Assembly (NCBI RefSeq): GCF_003641145.1
Contig: NZ_CP032744.1
Span: 1,054,001-1,118,000 of the forward strand
Reading direction: 5' to 3'
Source of the DNA: Lactiplantibacillus paraplantarum
Lineage (GTDB): Bacteria > Bacillota > Bacilli > Lactobacillales > Lactobacillaceae
DNA: 64,000 nt
Part shown: positions 5,811-12,099 of the stretch, piece by piece
How positions within the stretch are numbered: position 1 is the first letter of the stretch
How the letters are laid out: the number at the start of each line of letters is the position of its first letter
Position numbers and translations under genes: made by a program
Notes under the pieces: generated by a model
Told to the model about the DNA's origin: nothing
The model's database searches: none
The model's input: only the letters and a program-made list of their open reading frames with translations

Positions 5811-5818
5811 TGGTTAGT

Positions 5819-5859
5819 AAAACAGACATCGAGTGCGAATGCTCGACGTCTGTTTTGTT
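5819..5859 (+). terminator. Terminator of the opp operon
   Basis: A 15-bp stem with one mismatch (AAAACAGAC...TCGAG against CTCGA...GTCTGTTTT), an 8-nt loop, and a short T-run directly after the oppF stop. Confidence 0.85.
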
Positions 5860-6136
5860 ATTCAGTAAAATGTTTGAATCGACTGTCTTGATAAGTTAAT
5901 TGATTGATAACTATTATAATTAACTCATGTTAACTGGATATATAAAATTAATATATATAAAATATTCGTAATGAATGACGATTGAAATACTGATGGCATA
6001 AGGATGGTGAACGCTCCTTGATTAGATAAACTGTGACCCGTAGTCAAAGTTATTTGTGTAAAGCGTGTAATTATGCAATAATAATAACGTTAATAAAGTT
6101 TATTAACAAATATAACTATTCATCTTAATAATTGAT

Positions 6137-6164
6137 TCGCACCATTTTTAAAAAAATATTGCGA
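6137..6164. repeat. 28-bp palindrome, copy 1 (TCGCA - N18 - TGCGA)
   Basis: The ends TCGCA (6137-6141) and TGCGA (6160-6164) are inverted, and the centre is an A/T run that is itself nearly palindromic. A second copy lies 121 bp downstream in the opposite orientation and matches at 25 of 28 positions. Candidate operator for the adjacent MarR-type regulator; function is inference. Confidence 0.6.
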
Positions 6165-6257
6165 GTAAAACGGTGATCTCATTGAGGTTATCTAGGATGC
6201 GGTTAGCAACAAGCAATGACCAATTACATCAAAAAGGTTGATTTAATAGGAATCAGC

Positions 6258-6285
6258 TCGCACTATTTTTTTAAAAATCATGCGA
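6258..6285. repeat. 28-bp palindrome, copy 2 (inverted copy)
   Basis: The same architecture as the copy at 6137-6164: TCGCA (6258-6262), A/T core, TGCGA (6281-6285). Its reverse complement aligns with copy 1 at 25 of 28 bases. It ends 65 bp before the chosen start of the MarR-type gene. Confidence 0.6.
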
Positions 6286-6349
6286 ATGGCGGTTTGATTG
6301 TGTGGATGGTTAGTGAAAAATGACAACTTTCAGGAAGGATGCGATTAAT

Positions 6350-6739
6350 ATGCAACAATCTATTAATTATATTATGAATATCATGCACCTTGAACGCGAC
6401 TTAAAACGACTTACATCTAACTGGTCGTCCGCTACGGGGCTTAGTTTGAATGAATTACGGATTTTAGTCTACGTTGAACAACATCCAGGCATTCAAATTG
6501 GTGACGTTGCAGATGCCTTGAACGTGGCTAAGGCCTCATTGGCACAAAATATTGGGACTCTGATTACCCAGGGATGGTTGAAAAGCCAACCAATTAAACA
6601 AGACCGGCGTTTGCGGGTGTTAACACTCACTAAAACTGGTCAGGAACGAATGAAAGAAGTCGATGCCCAGCTGACCCAATCACTCGATACAACGCCGGCA
6701 ACGCAATTAGCAGATCAATTATCGGCCTTACAACTATAG
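6350..6739 (+). CDS. MarR-family winged-helix transcriptional regulator
   Basis: 129 residues from the ATG at 6350, which has AGGAAGGA at 6332-6339; the in-frame ATG at 6320 lacks such a site. The protein has the MarR layout: an N-terminal helix, then a winged helix with L-S-L-N-E-L-R-I-L, recognition helix region V-A-K-A-S-L-A-Q-N-I, and the wing K-Q-D-R-R-L-R-V-L-T-L-T-K-T-G. MarR proteins dimerise and bind palindromic operators, often near their own gene; the two 28-bp palindromes upstream are candidates. The ligand and targets cannot be read from the sequence. The C-terminus is short for the family. Confidence 0.85.
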   Translation: MQQSINYIMNIMHLERDLKRLTSNWSSATGLSLNELRILVYVEQHPGIQIGDVADALNVAKASLAQNIGTLITQGWLKSQPIKQDRRLRVLTLTKTGQERMKEVDAQLTQSLDTTPATQLADQLSALQL

Positions 6740-6785
6740 ACTGACGTACACGCTCACGGATGATTAAGTGAAGGTATAACCTTAA

Positions 6786-6826
6786 CGCGGGACAAAGGGG
6801 AAGACTCTTTGTCCCGCGCTTTTATT
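6786..6826 (+). terminator. Terminator after the MarR-type gene
   Basis: A perfect 12-bp GC-rich stem (6786-6797 with 6807-6818) is followed by CTTTTATTTT. Confidence 0.9.
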
Positions 6827-6936
6827 TTGAGATTTACTGATGAGGGGAGCGTTATAAGTTAATAATTACTCAGCTTAGTTTACGCTAGGTTAAGTAATTT
6901 GGAGTTAATAAAACTGATTGAGGTGTAATAAAACGT

Positions 6937-7488
6937 ATGCATTATAATGTTGAACCGCTGCGAACTACGCAAGAAATCGATGATTTTTTGTGGGCTGTGT
7001 CGCAAGCGCGTTATGGGGAACGTAACCGCATGATTGTTTTGGTCGGTATTAATACCGGGTTACGAATGAGCGACATTTTAAGACTAACGGTTGGGCAAGT
7101 TCGAGGTAGAGACCGCGTCATGATTATGGAACAAAAGACTGGTAAGAAGCGTTGGCTGTTCTTGAAAAATCTAAAGACTGAATTGGGCCGCTTTACGCGC
7201 TATCGGGCCACTAGTGAACCATTGTTTTGTAGTGATCGGGGTGGTGCGTTGACTGTGAATGGTGTCTATCGGGTCTTCCAGACTGCTAGTGAGTATCTTG
7301 AACGTGATGATATTGGGACACATACATTGCGTAAGACCTTTGGATATCACTATTATCAACAGACGCATGATATTGCTGGTTTGATGATGATTTTTAATCA
7401 TTCTAGTGAACAGGTCACAAAGCGCTATATTGGAATTGAACGGGACAACTTAGAGCGGCAGTTATGGGACTTTAAACTAGGGGTTTAG
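6937..7488 (+). CDS. Short tyrosine recombinase / integrase-like protein
   Basis: 183 residues with the catalytic core of a tyrosine recombinase: Arg43 (G-L-R-M-S-D), a Lys-rich beta-hairpin (Q-K-T-G-K-K-R), His129-x-x-Arg132 (T-H-T-L-R-K-T), His155 (F-N-H-S-S) and the nucleophile Tyr164 (R-Y-I-G-I). All key residues are present, so it may be active. It lacks the N-terminal core-binding (SAM-like) domain of XerC/D and phage integrases, which usually reach 290-400 residues. GAGGTG precedes the ATG. It lies beside a toxin-antitoxin module, so it could belong to a mobile or degraded element, but no attachment repeats were recognised. It could equally be a stand-alone chromosomal recombinase. Confidence 0.8.
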   Translation: MHYNVEPLRTTQEIDDFLWAVSQARYGERNRMIVLVGINTGLRMSDILRLTVGQVRGRDRVMIMEQKTGKKRWLFLKNLKTELGRFTRYRATSEPLFCSDRGGALTVNGVYRVFQTASEYLERDDIGTHTLRKTFGYHYYQQTHDIAGLMMIFNHSSEQVTKRYIGIERDNLERQLWDFKLGV

Positions 7489-7594
7489 TTGCTCATTGAC
7501 TAGCTATTGGGATTAGGAGACACTAGATTTGTGATAGAAGCAGTGGTTTACGTGAGGCTATAGTAATAAAAATATTTTTATGGAACGTTTCACG

Positions 7595-7633
7595 TTTGGA
7601 TGATGCTAATATGTTGTAAAATACAGATGTATT
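7595..7633 (+). promoter_or_regulatory. Possible promoter/operator of the DarTG module
   Basis: A weak -35 (TTTGGA, 7595-7600) and -10 (TAAAAT, 7617-7622) are 16 bp apart. The -10 overlaps a perfect inverted repeat AATACA-GA-TGTATT (7620-7633), which could be an autoregulatory operator. Sequence match only. Confidence 0.3.
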
Positions 7634-7716
7634 CATATCGGAACACTACCATTTTAAAATAGTGAGTGGTGTATGATAAATGTGAGAGACAATGGTTTAC
7701 GATTGGAGGGCAAATT

Positions 7717-8655
7717 ATGTTAATGTACGTTAATTCAAATCTTTTTGATAGCCCCGCCCAAGTGTTGGTGAATACTGTTAATACAGTTGGTGTTATGGGG
7801 AAGGGAATTGCACTTCAATTTAAAAAACTTTATCCTGAAATGTTTAGGAACTATCAACATTTCTGTGAGAGCGGTGCTTTGACGGTAGGAAAATTATATC
7901 TATATAAAGCACCAGGAAAATGGATCTTAAACTTTCCAACTAAAAAGAATTGGCGAAATAAATCGCAATTGGCATACATTGAGGCCGGCCTACAAAAGTT
8001 TGTAGCGACCTATCAGGAAAAGGAAATCGAATCTATCTCGTTTCCACAATTAGGGACTGGAAATGGTGGCCTTGATTGGGAACGAGAAGTTCAACCGTTA
8101 ATGGAAAAGTATTTGCGAAAATTGCCAATTAAAGTCTATGTCCATATTTATACTGGATGGGAAAAACAACCAGAGTATAAGAATATCAAGGAAATGCGTA
8201 CTTGGATCGAGAGTGAGCCGGATTCTTTGAGCTTTACAGAATTTAAGCGAGATTTCATTACGGCTCAAACAGGGACTAACTTCGTTGAAAAAAATCGACG
8301 TATTCAGATTGTTGATGATGATGAACCGGTAGATGCAACCGCAGGAAGTTTTATGAAGATTACACATCAGGATACCAATATAGCTTATGCGATTACACAG
8401 ACTAATTTCACTGACATCTGGACTCGACTTCGAGATCAAGGAATACTTTTGGATGTTGATTTGCCACAGTCGGTGCTGGAACATCAAGATAATGGTCTTT
8501 TAAAGCAATTATTAGTGAAAATACCCTATATTACAACGCTATCGGTCAAAATAGGCGAGGATAAGACCACGGCGCTATCATTACGTAAGCGGGCCCTATC
8601 AGAGCGTGCTACCAAGAAGTCGGCTGCTTACTCTGAAATTCTAATGGAGGGGTAG
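7717..8655 (+). CDS. darG: DarG-like macro-domain antitoxin (DNA ADP-ribosyl glycohydrolase)
   Basis: 312 residues from the ATG at 7717, which has TGGAGGG 8 bp upstream; an earlier in-frame start at 7666 has no such site. Residues 1-150 form a macro domain with the DarG-type signature: V-N-T-V-N-T-V-G-V-M-G-K-G-I-A-L-Q-F, then N-F-P-T-K-K-N-W-R-N-K-S and Q-L-G-T-G-N-G-G-L-D-W. In known DarTG systems this domain removes ADP-ribose from thymidine in DNA, and the C-terminal domain binds the toxin. Here residues 160-312 form such a second domain, which I do not recognise in detail. The toxin gene starts 1 bp after the stop, so the two are translationally linked. Confidence 0.85.
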   Translation: MLMYVNSNLFDSPAQVLVNTVNTVGVMGKGIALQFKKLYPEMFRNYQHFCESGALTVGKLYLYKAPGKWILNFPTKKNWRNKSQLAYIEAGLQKFVATYQEKEIESISFPQLGTGNGGLDWEREVQPLMEKYLRKLPIKVYVHIYTGWEKQPEYKNIKEMRTWIESEPDSLSFTEFKRDFITAQTGTNFVEKNRRIQIVDDDEPVDATAGSFMKITHQDTNIAYAITQTNFTDIWTRLRDQGILLDVDLPQSVLEHQDNGLLKQLLVKIPYITTLSVKIGEDKTTALSLRKRALSERATKKSAAYSEILMEG

Positions 8656-8656
8656 T

Positions 8657-9703
8657 ATGTTATATCAAGATACTGTGGATCGTCTACTAAGTGGCAAGAT
8701 TGATATTGGTCTTAATCCAACTAAACGAAAATATTGGCCACGTTTTGCTTTTCACTTCACCGATATTGATAACGCAATTGATATTTTAAATCAAGGTTTT
8801 TTAGTTTCGAGGGAATATGCTAAAAAGTATGGTGTAATGCGCAATGATAATGCTAGCAATGTGGTGATTAGTCAGACTAACGAGAATGTTAAGAGTATGG
8901 TGCGGCTGTATTTTCGGCCGCGGACGCCAACGCAGTATTATAACGAAGGTTTTCAGACTTCGTATAGGTGTAACCAGAGTGATCTTCAAGCGAATTGTCC
9001 GGTACCGGTGTTCTTTCTGTTTGATCTGGTAAGTCTTTTAAAGTGCCCTGATGTTCAATTTTCAGATCGGTCGTTGGCTAGTAGCGGAACTTCGCTAATG
9101 AGAACACCGACAGAATTTAGTCGATTGCCATTTGATAAGATTTATCATGATTCAGGGATGGCGGGACTAGATAGTTTGCAGCGAAGAAAGATTACGCAGC
9201 ATAAACACGCGGAAATTGTTGTACCGCAAAAGCTTGATTTGAGTTTACTTAAACTGATTTATGTTCGATCAATTGCTGAAAAAACGACCTTATTGGAAAA
9301 ATTACATGCTGATTGTAATTTTCGGTATGATTCGCTTATACAGGTGGGTGATGAATCTACTTTTTATATGGATAGAAATTTCATTCAGAGCGTTAATATG
9401 AACACTAGGTATCTGCATATCAAGAGTAATGTTAAAGATCCTTATCCTAAAGAATGGGGCAGAGAGACTAAATTTGCCATCAATCCTGACAGTGAAAATC
9501 GTTACTTGAACGTGGTTGTTAACATCTCTTTGCCAAGCGGAAGGATGGTTAGTTGGCCGGGATCTGATCATCGGGCAGTTTTACACAATAAAATGGATTT
9601 TAGGTGGCCTAATCCTTTAAATAACTATCAAGTAGAAGTTTTGATTGATGGTCATGTCGCTTACTATAATCACTTTGAACAAATTGATGATGCGCCATTT
9701 TAG
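8657..9703 (+). CDS. darT: DarT-like toxin: DNA thymidine ADP-ribosyltransferase
   Basis: 348 residues, with GGAGGGG just before the start. The N-terminal 215 residues match the DarT (DUF4433) fold: F-H33-F-T35-D-I with G-F-L for the NAD site, Y85-F-R-P-R89-T-P for the conserved arginine motif, and K-H-A-E186-I-V-V-P carrying the likely catalytic Glu. DarT modifies thymidine in single-stranded DNA with ADP-ribose and blocks replication; with DarG it acts in toxin-antitoxin control and phage defence. Residues 216-348 are an extra C-terminal domain not found in the usual DarT of about 210 residues. The order antitoxin-toxin is the reverse of the best-known darT-darG operons. Both genes look more AT-rich than the flanking core genes, which suggests transfer. 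Confidence 0.85.
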   Translation: MLYQDTVDRLLSGKIDIGLNPTKRKYWPRFAFHFTDIDNAIDILNQGFLVSREYAKKYGVMRNDNASNVVISQTNENVKSMVRLYFRPRTPTQYYNEGFQTSYRCNQSDLQANCPVPVFFLFDLVSLLKCPDVQFSDRSLASSGTSLMRTPTEFSRLPFDKIYHDSGMAGLDSLQRRKITQHKHAEIVVPQKLDLSLLKLIYVRSIAEKTTLLEKLHADCNFRYDSLIQVGDESTFYMDRNFIQSVNMNTRYLHIKSNVKDPYPKEWGRETKFAINPDSENRYLNVVVNISLPSGRMVSWPGSDHRAVLHNKMDFRWPNPLNNYQVEVLIDGHVAYYNHFEQIDDAPF

Positions 9704-9755
9704 ACGCGAGACGGGCTGGCTTTTATCTAAAATGACGATTGACATTGGTCGTTAA

Positions 9756-9802
9756 AAAATAAGGGAAGTATCCGGATTAATCCGAATGCTTCCCTTATTT
9801 AG
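9756..9802. terminator. Bidirectional terminator between darT and clpE
   Basis: A long hairpin: AAATAAGGGAAG (9757-9768 region) pairs with CTTCCCTTATTT, and an inner stem surrounds GGATTAATCC. A-rich and T-rich flanks let it work for both convergent genes. Confidence 0.85.
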
Positions 9803-9808
9803 GTCTGT

Positions 9809-12025
9809 TTATTCAGTCTTAGTTTCAGCCGCCAAAACAATCTTGCCGTCTTCAACTTTTGCGACCATATTCTTAACGTCGCCATGGTCCAAATAGAAGT
9901 CGGCGATGCGATCTTCGATTTGTTCCTGGATAACGCGCCGAAGTGGCCGAGCGCCCATTTGTGGGTTGTAACCTAGTTCAACGAGCTTTTCCTCAACGGG
10001 TTCTGTCACGTGAACATGTAAGCCTTGGTTAGCTAACATGCCGTTGACATCTTCGATCATCAAGCCAACAATCTTCATCAAGTTTTCCTTGGATAGCGCG
10101 TTGAATTGAATGATGTCATCAAACCGGTTTAAGAATTCTGGTTTGAAGTAATCTGTCAAGCGGCTAGTGATGTCGTGGGTCTTACCTTCAGCAGCAGCAC
10201 CAAAGCCGACATTAGCCTCACTGTCGCCAGTTCCAGCGTTGGAAGTCATGATGATAATCGTATCCTTGAAGCTGACCGTCCGGCCTTGTGAGTCGGTTAA
10301 ACGGCCATCATCGAGAATCTGTAAGAACATGTGCATGACATCCGGATGAGCCTTTTCAACTTCGTCTAGTAGGACCAAGCTATAAGGATGACGCCGAACT
10401 TGTTCAGTTAACTGACCAGCTTCTTCATAGCCAACATAACCAGGCGGTGAACCAATCAACTTAGCCACTGAATGGGGTTCCATGTACTCACTCATATCAA
10501 ACCGAATCATGGCATCTTGTGAGCCGAACAGTTCTTTAGCCAGTTGTTTAGCCAATTCAGTTTTACCGACCCCGGTTGGGCCGACAAACATGAAGGAGCC
10601 GATTGGCCGACCAGTCCCATTGAGACCAATCCGATTACGCCGGATGGCCCGGGCAACAGCTTCAACCGCTTGGTCTTGGCCGATGACCGTACTCTTAAGA
10701 TCAGGCGCTAAGGTCTTCATTTGGGCTTGTTCCTTAGCCTGCAAGTCACCAACTGGAATACTTGTCTTTTCTTCGACAATTTGTTCCATATCCTTGACTG
10801 TTACAGTGGCAGTGTCGTTATTAGGCTGGTCTGAACTTTCATCGGGCTTAGCTTTTTCTAACTTAGCTACTTGATCACGATAGTAGGCCGCTTTTTCGTA
10901 GTCTTCCTTCTTCAAGGCGTCCTGTTTCTGCTTTTCGGCCTCATCGATCTTTTCTTGGATCGTCTTTGGATCAACCGTCTTCAATGTTAAGTTCTTACGT
11001 GAACCGGCTTCATCGAGTAAGTCGATGGCCTTGTCGGGTAAGAAGCGATCTTGAATGTAACGGTTTGATACCTTAACTGCCGCTACGATAGCATCTTGAT
11101 CATACTTAACGTGGTGATAGTCTTCATACTTCTTTTGAATACCCTTCAGAATCTTGATGGATTCTTCGACACTTGGTTCGTTGACCGTGACCGGTTGGAA
11201 CCGGCGGGCGAGGGCGGCATCCTTTTCGATGTCGCGGTATTCATTTAATGTCGTAGCTCCAACTAATTGGAAGTCGCCACGAGCAAGGGCGGGCTTTAAG
11301 ACGTTACCCGCATCCATACCACCTTCAGCATTGCCGGCACCCATGATTTCATGGATTTCGTCAATGAAGAGAATGATATTCGGATTACTTTGAACTTCCT
11401 TCATTAATTGCTGCATTCGTTGTTCAAATTGACCCCGAATACCAGTCCCTTGAACAAGGGAAGCCACGTCCAAACGAATAATTTCTTTATCTAACAGTTT
11501 TTGTGGAACTTGACCAGAAACGATTTTCTGTGCTAAACCTTCCACGACCGCCGTTTTACCAACACCAGCTTCACCAATCAAAACGGGGTTATTCTTGGTC
11601 CGGCGATTTAAGATCTCGATAACACGATTGATTTCGTTATCGCGACCAATCACTGGATCAATTTTGCCCTGTTTAGCTTGCGCGGTTAAGTTGAAACCGT
11701 ATTGACCAAGGAGGCCACCGCCGTTGTTATTGCCACGACGATTACCGCCATTAGGACCAGCTGGCTGGGTCGGTGGGGTCTGTTGTTGCCGGTACGCGTT
11801 AGAATCAACGCCGCCCTGCATTGCACGGAAAATGTCGTCAAGACCACCAAAACCGAATGGATCTTGTGCCATATCAGCACCTCCAACTCCGTTATTTGGT
11901 TGCTGTTCCTGATTCTTTAGCAGTTGATAGCAATTTTGACAAAGGTTGATTTGTCGCCGCTGACCGTTGACGCTCGTATATAAATGAATCGTCGCTTCGT
12001 TCTTATGGCAATTGTCACAAAGCAT
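9809..12025 (-). CDS. clpE: ATP-dependent Clp protease ATP-binding subunit ClpE
   Basis: 738 residues, a class I Clp/Hsp100 unfoldase with two AAA+ modules: Walker A motifs GEAGVGKT and GPTGVGKT, Walker B LFIDEIHE and [14 protein letters not shown]-type coiled segment ([17 protein letters not shown]) lies between them. The N-terminal zinc finger Cys3/Cys6 and Cys29/Cys32 is the ClpE hallmark and separates it from ClpC. I start at the ATG at 12025 because the family begins with M-L-C-x-N-C; the reading frame is open upstream to 12079. It feeds proteins to ClpP under heat and protein stress. A CtsR operator lies over the promoter. Confidence 0.94.
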
Positions 12026-12099
12026 TATGCTGTCACACACCTTTCGCATCAGAAATATAACTAAATCGATTAGGATCATAGTTAAAGGTTCATCGGCTC

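Follow-up and report, generated by a model that had tools for sequence, protein, structure and literature searches.

An antitoxin-first gene pair of the DarT/DarG superfamily in Lactiplantibacillus paraplantarum, with a toxin from a separate DarT branch

A 64,000-nucleotide stretch of Lactiplantibacillus paraplantarum DNA (contig NZ_CP032744.1, positions 1,054,001 to 1,118,000; hereafter the window, in whose coordinates positions are given) carries two adjacent genes that we read, with a probability of roughly 70%, as a toxin–antitoxin (TA) module of the DarTG kind, in which one product would ADP-ribosylate a DNA base and the macrodomain of the other would reverse the mark. The pair has features of the DarT/DarG superfamily: a DarT-type ADP-ribosyltransferase (ART) domain, an H-Y-E triad and a DarG/TARG1-type macrodomain with a catalytic Lys. 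It belongs to a separate branch of DarT-like toxins with conserved linkage to the antitoxin gene, in which the gene order is reversed and both partners carry second domains of another type. The kind is already known, since NCBI names and PADLOC profiles assign genes like these to the DarT/DarG family on the strength of their domains; the variant appears to be undescribed in the literature searched. If a DNA base is indeed the target, the odds that it is thymidine are about even. The module is perhaps anti-phage.

The antitoxin gene (7717–8655, + strand) encodes 312 residues from an ATG preceded by GGAGGG; a longer version starting from GTG at 7666 is possible. The toxin gene (8657–9703, + strand; 348 residues) starts 1 nt past the darG stop, and GGAGGGG, read in the sequence, spans the end of darG ahead of darT. 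Because of this one-base gap and the position of GGAGGGG, translation of the two genes is probably coupled. Both open reading frames (ORFs) are in place, as is the antitoxin-first order claimed in an earlier, sequence-only reading. Pfam assigned the antitoxin to Macro (1.6e-19) and toxin residues 32–217 to DarT PF14487 (1.4e-22), and PADLOC profiles matched both proteins (DarG, 1.5e-61; DarT, 2.4e-10). The partner of the toxin is a Macro protein, and no NADAR match was found in the window's locus. The module is the only DarT-family match in the 3.37-Mb genome, and for each of the two proteins the closest named relatives come from Lactiplantibacillus.

The predicted models have a mean predicted local distance difference test (pLDDT) score of 95.7 for the toxin and 84.2 for the antitoxin. 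Toxin residues 1–237 (8657–9367, +) form the DarT-type ART domain, whose closest folds in a fold search were, by far, the DNA-modifying DarTs, not RNA- or protein-modifying ART families, a better match to which would have told against the sequence-only reading. The H-Y-E triad corresponds to H33, Y85 and E186; the DarT motifs noticed earlier are present, with E186 (codon 9212–9214, +) at the catalytic-Glu position. For conservation analysis, the window toxin was aligned with 84 of the 91 proteins from a whole-protein search (alignment A2; left out were the window's own copy, P0001, and P0043, P0054, P0074, P0075, P0082 and P0088). E186, R87 and R204 are invariant in the 85 sequences, and R83 is present in 84.

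The antitoxin macrodomain (residues 1–150; 7717–8166, +) bears the DarG signatures previously noted, N-F-P-T-K from residue 72, W-R-N from residue 79 and G-N-G-G-L-D-W from residue 115. It superposes on a DarG macrodomain with 46% identity and a root-mean-square deviation of 1.2 over 145 residues. K76 (codon 7942–7944, +), the equivalent of the DarG catalytic K80, is invariant in 62 aligned sequences; in Taq DarG, loss of K80 abolishes turnover (PMC5179494).

The DarT-domain phylogeny that the sequence-only reading had proposed places the toxin in a branch of its own. In a maximum-likelihood tree of 66 DarT domains, 49 TPTQ sequences, as we call those grouping with the window toxin and its T-P-T-Q at residues 90–93 (8924–8935, +), separate from DarT1, DarT2, the NPM group and L120 with support of 99/94; the tree is unrooted, has long branches (L120, L008, L101 and L119) and includes only two DarT1 and three NPM rows. 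A DarT match was found in 22 of 398 Bacillota genomes: six TPTQ (the window, L112–L114, L116 and L117), six DarT2 (L102–L107), five NPM (L108–L111 and L115/L123), two DarT1 with NADAR by Pfam (L119 and L121) and three left unclassed (L118, L120 and L122). Within the window's family, nine of 301 genomes gave a match at E 0.001, among them a chance match (L010), a relict (L009), a toxin with a long N-terminus (L008) and a split gene (L007/L011). The best 80 of the 178 loci found by a genome-contig scan comprise 75 distinct genes, counting genes that share their last 60 residues once, from 11 named phyla, with 4 unplaced; a Rhizobium plasmid copy adds Pseudomonadota to this range.

Two further observations came from this comparison. 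The NPM group ('ARNPM', 'DRNAS') comprises additional toxin-first DarTs whose macro antitoxin carries a remote relative of the DarG2 second domain. L120 (1057–2058, −) encodes a DarT-like protein of 333 residues, preceded by a protein of 316 residues, with no macro match in the locus.

Gene order and second-domain type among the relatives were counted with duplicate genes again taken once, with split ORFs represented by their largest piece and with ORFs unmatched or scoring below 25 bits against their best profile excluded (for example L009, L010, L118, L120 and L122). Of the 89 loci whose TPTQ toxin has a short N-terminus, 84 have the macro gene ahead of the toxin gene on the same strand, and in 76 of those 84 the genes overlap or are at most 10 nt apart; the largest gap, 357 nt, is in L025, where the toxin ORF is split. 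In L042 and L059 the toxin starts within about 420 nt of the contig end and no macro gene was found, and in the viral loci L095–L097 the macro gene is on the opposite strand. The toxin gene comes first in the four TPTQ loci with a long N-terminus (L008, L101, L116 and L117), in 13/13 DarT2, 5/5 NPM and 2/2 DarT1 loci, both of the latter with a NADAR antitoxin. Gene order thus tracks toxin domain layout in this sample. The four long TPTQ proteins have N-terminal extensions and lengths of 457–793 residues; the antitoxin of L008 is cut by the locus end. The sequence-only reading was right about the reversed order and the different second domains, and because these are common to the branch in many phyla, they are features of the class and not of this one locus.

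The second domain of the antitoxin (residues about 157–292; 8185–8592, +) is predicted to be folded, more weakly at residues 201–210, and remained unrecognised by sequence, as had been reported for this half of the protein. Pfam gave no match up to E 0.5 for the window domain and weak ones only for 40 TPTQ second domains (best E 0.011; any one family occurs in at most two of the 40). We compared profiles of the TPTQ (A7), DarG2 (A8) and NPM (A9) second domains. A8 and A9 are related (hhalign, 96.8%), and A7 matched neither profile (0.5% and 0.1%, respectively). Against PDB sequences, A7 had no significant match (best E 0.9) and did not retrieve 7yk3_B, the M. tuberculosis DarG domain that A8 retrieved as a control at 4.3e-37. 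In a search of 5.8 billion proteins, A7 gave 144 matches; 117 of the 120 listed also carry a macrodomain, and none listed is longer than 307 residues, so longer carriers probably lie beyond a length limit. Within that limit, the A7 domain looks dedicated to TPTQ antitoxins. It was found in 82 of 89 short-N-terminus TPTQ loci (of the others, two have no macro gene, two have neither domain and three have the DarG2 type), A8 in 13/13 DarT2 loci and A9 in 4/5 NPM loci, and none of the three matched in the four long-N-terminus TPTQ loci; these own-class counts are largely circular, because the profiles were built from members of the same sets, and their informative part is the lack of cross-matches, L095–L097 excepted. 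Separately, PHROG family 335 ('phosphatase') matches antitoxin residues 3–232, past the macrodomain, at 8.8e-40; phages may carry relatives.

The toxin also has an additional C-terminal part, residues 240–348 (9374–9700, +). Because the DarT-fold match itself reaches about residue 237, this part is about 110 residues long and not the 130 first estimated, and instead of lacking a recognised fold it is predicted to be an Ig/FN3-like β-sandwich. Across 79 toxin–antitoxin pairs, the catalytic domains have diverged far less than have the Ig-like domain and the antitoxin second domain. The distances of these last two correlate when both catalytic domains are controlled for (partial r 0.31; 0.19 and 0.19 for the cross pairs, 0.48 for ART and macrodomain), in agreement with contact between the two domains; this co-variation is suggestive only, because the distances for the second domains are close to saturation and each of the four correlations, cross pairs included, exceeds all 999 permutations.

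That lack of specificity is one of several points that weigh against our reading. NCBIfam equivalog cut-offs were missed by both proteins (DarG, 195.6 of 250 bits; DarT, 24.3 of 150 bits). In the viral loci L095 (3852–5978), L096 (3853–5978) and L097 (3063–5186), a TPTQ DarT is divergent from a DarG2-type antitoxin (A8, E 1.3e-15 to 2.8e-19). The defence context is weak, the neighbours being diverse and tallied without a control set. A further point concerns the active site. MAFFT and hhalign (98.4%) alike pair the DarT2 residues E160, Y71, R51, M78 and H119 with toxin E186, Y85, N65, T92 and S139, respectively. The DarT2 methionine is numbered M78; under that numbering, L135 has the expected R, Y, H and E at positions 51, 71, 119 and 160. 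No TPTQ sequence of the 85 has R at column 65, and 84 have T at column 92, the remaining one having M; T92 was partly selected for in the genome and viral loci, since these were fetched with patterns that include YFRPxTP, and column 65 is in no pattern. R51 and M78 are both kept in 11/11 DarT2-branch and 3/3 NPM sequences. L120 has R in the R51 column and no M in the M78 column, and the two DarT1 domains have neither. H119, the target-base residue, is H in only 5/11 DarT2-branch sequences.

In DarT2, R51, Y71 and H119 are so numbered in PMC11543638 and E160 in PMC5179494. Alanine at M71 or R52 inactivates DarT1 (PMC11543638), and EPEC (enteropathogenic Escherichia coli) DarT2 carrying R57A or M84L in addition to the attenuating G49D allows growth like the dead E170A variant (PMC13368585); by numbering, EPEC R57 and M84 should be DarT2 R51 and M78. 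The TPTQ branch therefore keeps the ART triad but has changed residues that are credited with stabilising the reaction and accepting the proton. Because R51 and M78 are replaced across the branch, the chemistry may differ, or some TPTQ members may be inactive. The pair of a DarT fold and a DarG macrodomain seen by the sequence-only reading stands; thymidine as the target cannot be read from the sequence, because nearly the whole branch has other residues in place of two that DarT2 requires, and the modified base, and even DNA as opposed to RNA, we infer.

As a sub-case of the reading we prefer, the module could be an ordinary DarTG2 with inverted order, acting on thymidine N3 of single-stranded DNA, with the residue changes neutral. 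The conserved H-Y-E triad and the close superposition of the macrodomain on those of DarG proteins, which are known to act on thymidine-linked ADP-ribose (PMC5179494), are consistent with it; the loss of R51 and M78, the well-supported separate branch, the different antitoxin second domain and the missed NCBIfam cut-offs argue the other way, leaving it plausible at somewhat less than even odds. An RNA target (mRNA, tRNA or rRNA), as for CmdT, RhsP2 and Tre23, with a macrodomain that removes the RNA mark, would accommodate the changed DarT2 residues, and RNA-targeting ARTs are known (PMC11618068, PMC11833690). We consider it unlikely: the nearest folds are DNA-modifying DarTs, the antitoxin has a DarG macrodomain, and no SecB-like chaperone, as in CmdTAC, occurs among the 25 of 105 neighbour families listed, seen as family tallies. 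At less than even odds, though better ones than those of the RNA target, the branch might be a third DarTG class. Its toxin would use a rebuilt active site, in which conserved R83, R87 and R204 together with T92 stand in for R51/M78, to modify some base or position that is neither thymidine N3 nor guanine N2; its antitoxin would combine a macrodomain of matching specificity with a new toxin-capture domain reading the Ig-like domain.

DarTG systems have been split into two families (PMC11543638, PMC12255303). Their toxins transfer ADP-ribose from NAD+ onto a DNA base, stalling replication; a hydrolase counteracts them, as does direct binding in the case of DarG2 (PMC11543638, PMC5179494, PMC12255303). 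For the DarTG-kind module proposed here, the downstream gene product would be an NAD+-dependent ART that places ADP-ribose onto a nucleobase of single-stranded DNA, so that replication would be blocked. The upstream product would strip ADP-ribose through K76 of its macrodomain, and its class-specific second domain would hold the toxin, probably by touching its Ig-like domain, the DNA groove or both. With the antitoxin gene first and translation coupled, the antidote would stay in excess until an event such as phage infection upset the balance. The fold, triad and macrodomain fit this scheme; given the changed residues, the base may or may not be thymidine.

DarTG2 of Taq, EPEC and M. tuberculosis shares with the window pair the DarT fold, H-Y-E, the DarG-type macrodomain with its catalytic Lys and gene adjacency. 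It differs in having darT before darG, R51/M78 where the window toxin has N65/T92, no Ig-like domain and a DarT-binding domain (7yk3_B) to which the antitoxin second domain has no relation in sequence-profile comparison. DarTG1 combines DarT1 with NADAR instead of Macro and falls elsewhere in the tree. The NPM group shares DarT and a macrodomain; unlike the window pair, it keeps R51/M78, is toxin-first and has a DarG2-related second domain. The antitoxin-first order alone is not unique, as YarT-YbiA also has its antitoxin gene upstream of an ART toxin; YarT, however, is a small HYD1-type ART and its antitoxin is NADAR/YbiA (PMC11125620). As to CmdTAC, with its SecB-like chaperone gene beside the ART, the + strand between int and clpE here holds no third gene of at least 80 residues. 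Our search of open-access literature turned up DarTG1 and DarTG2 and no third class. If our interpretation is true, a third widespread branch, with its own type of active site and of holding domains, would broaden what is known of how DNA bases are ADP-ribosylated, and neutralising domains would be exchangeable while the catalytic pair is kept. Several TPTQ toxins in public records are named 'DarT ssDNA thymidine ADP-ribosyltransferase family protein', a name that is not warranted until the base has been measured.

The module appears to have entered a variable interval recently, given its low GC content (38.6% against 45.7% for the window, a value equally low in 3 of 311 equal-sized stretches) and darGT-free relatives. 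On its 5′ side are oppCDF-like genes, a MarR gene (6320–6739) and an integrase-like gene of 183 residues (6937–7488); on its 3′ side is a clpE-like gene (9809–12079) on the opposite strand (opp and clpE names were assigned by eye, without a family search). None of the 11 same-genus stretches read has darT upstream of clpE: int adjoins clpE without darGT in L160, L167 and L168, marR is present but int absent in L170, int is accompanied by about 4.3 kb of other genes in L161, and L162, L164–L166 and L169 have neither marR nor int nearby. The genome from which L164 comes, G300, has a TPTQ pair elsewhere (L006). L163 (6805–7287, +) has an open stand-alone macro gene of 160 residues and no detectable toxin, and L009 (1751–2263, −), from another genus, has a macro gene of 170 residues with the toxin reduced to a 61-residue tail; in both, the antidote looks to have outlasted the poison. 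In L007/L011/L036 (copies of a single gene) and in L025, the toxin ORF lies in two overlapping frames and the antitoxin ORF is intact.

These decayed toxins, together with the two lost DarT2 residues, would suit a pseudo-enzyme or relict whose fold persists with catalysis gone. We regard this as quite improbable, as E186, R87 and R204 are invariant and adjacent pairs occur in many phyla, and a live poison would be expected to select for just such loss of the toxin with the antitoxin still open.

The stretch from the opp genes to clpE (5811–9808) is a variable spot: relatives of the same genus differ in how long it is and in what it holds, with genes listed for L161 alone. An inverted repeat (9759–9799) that separates darT from the convergent clpE, found by eye and absent from the output of the repeat scan, is a possible shared terminator. 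On a Rhizobium acidisoli plasmid (L143, 1060–6799), a macro-first copy has SIR2/ATP-binding genes on one side and a reverse transcriptase gene on the other.
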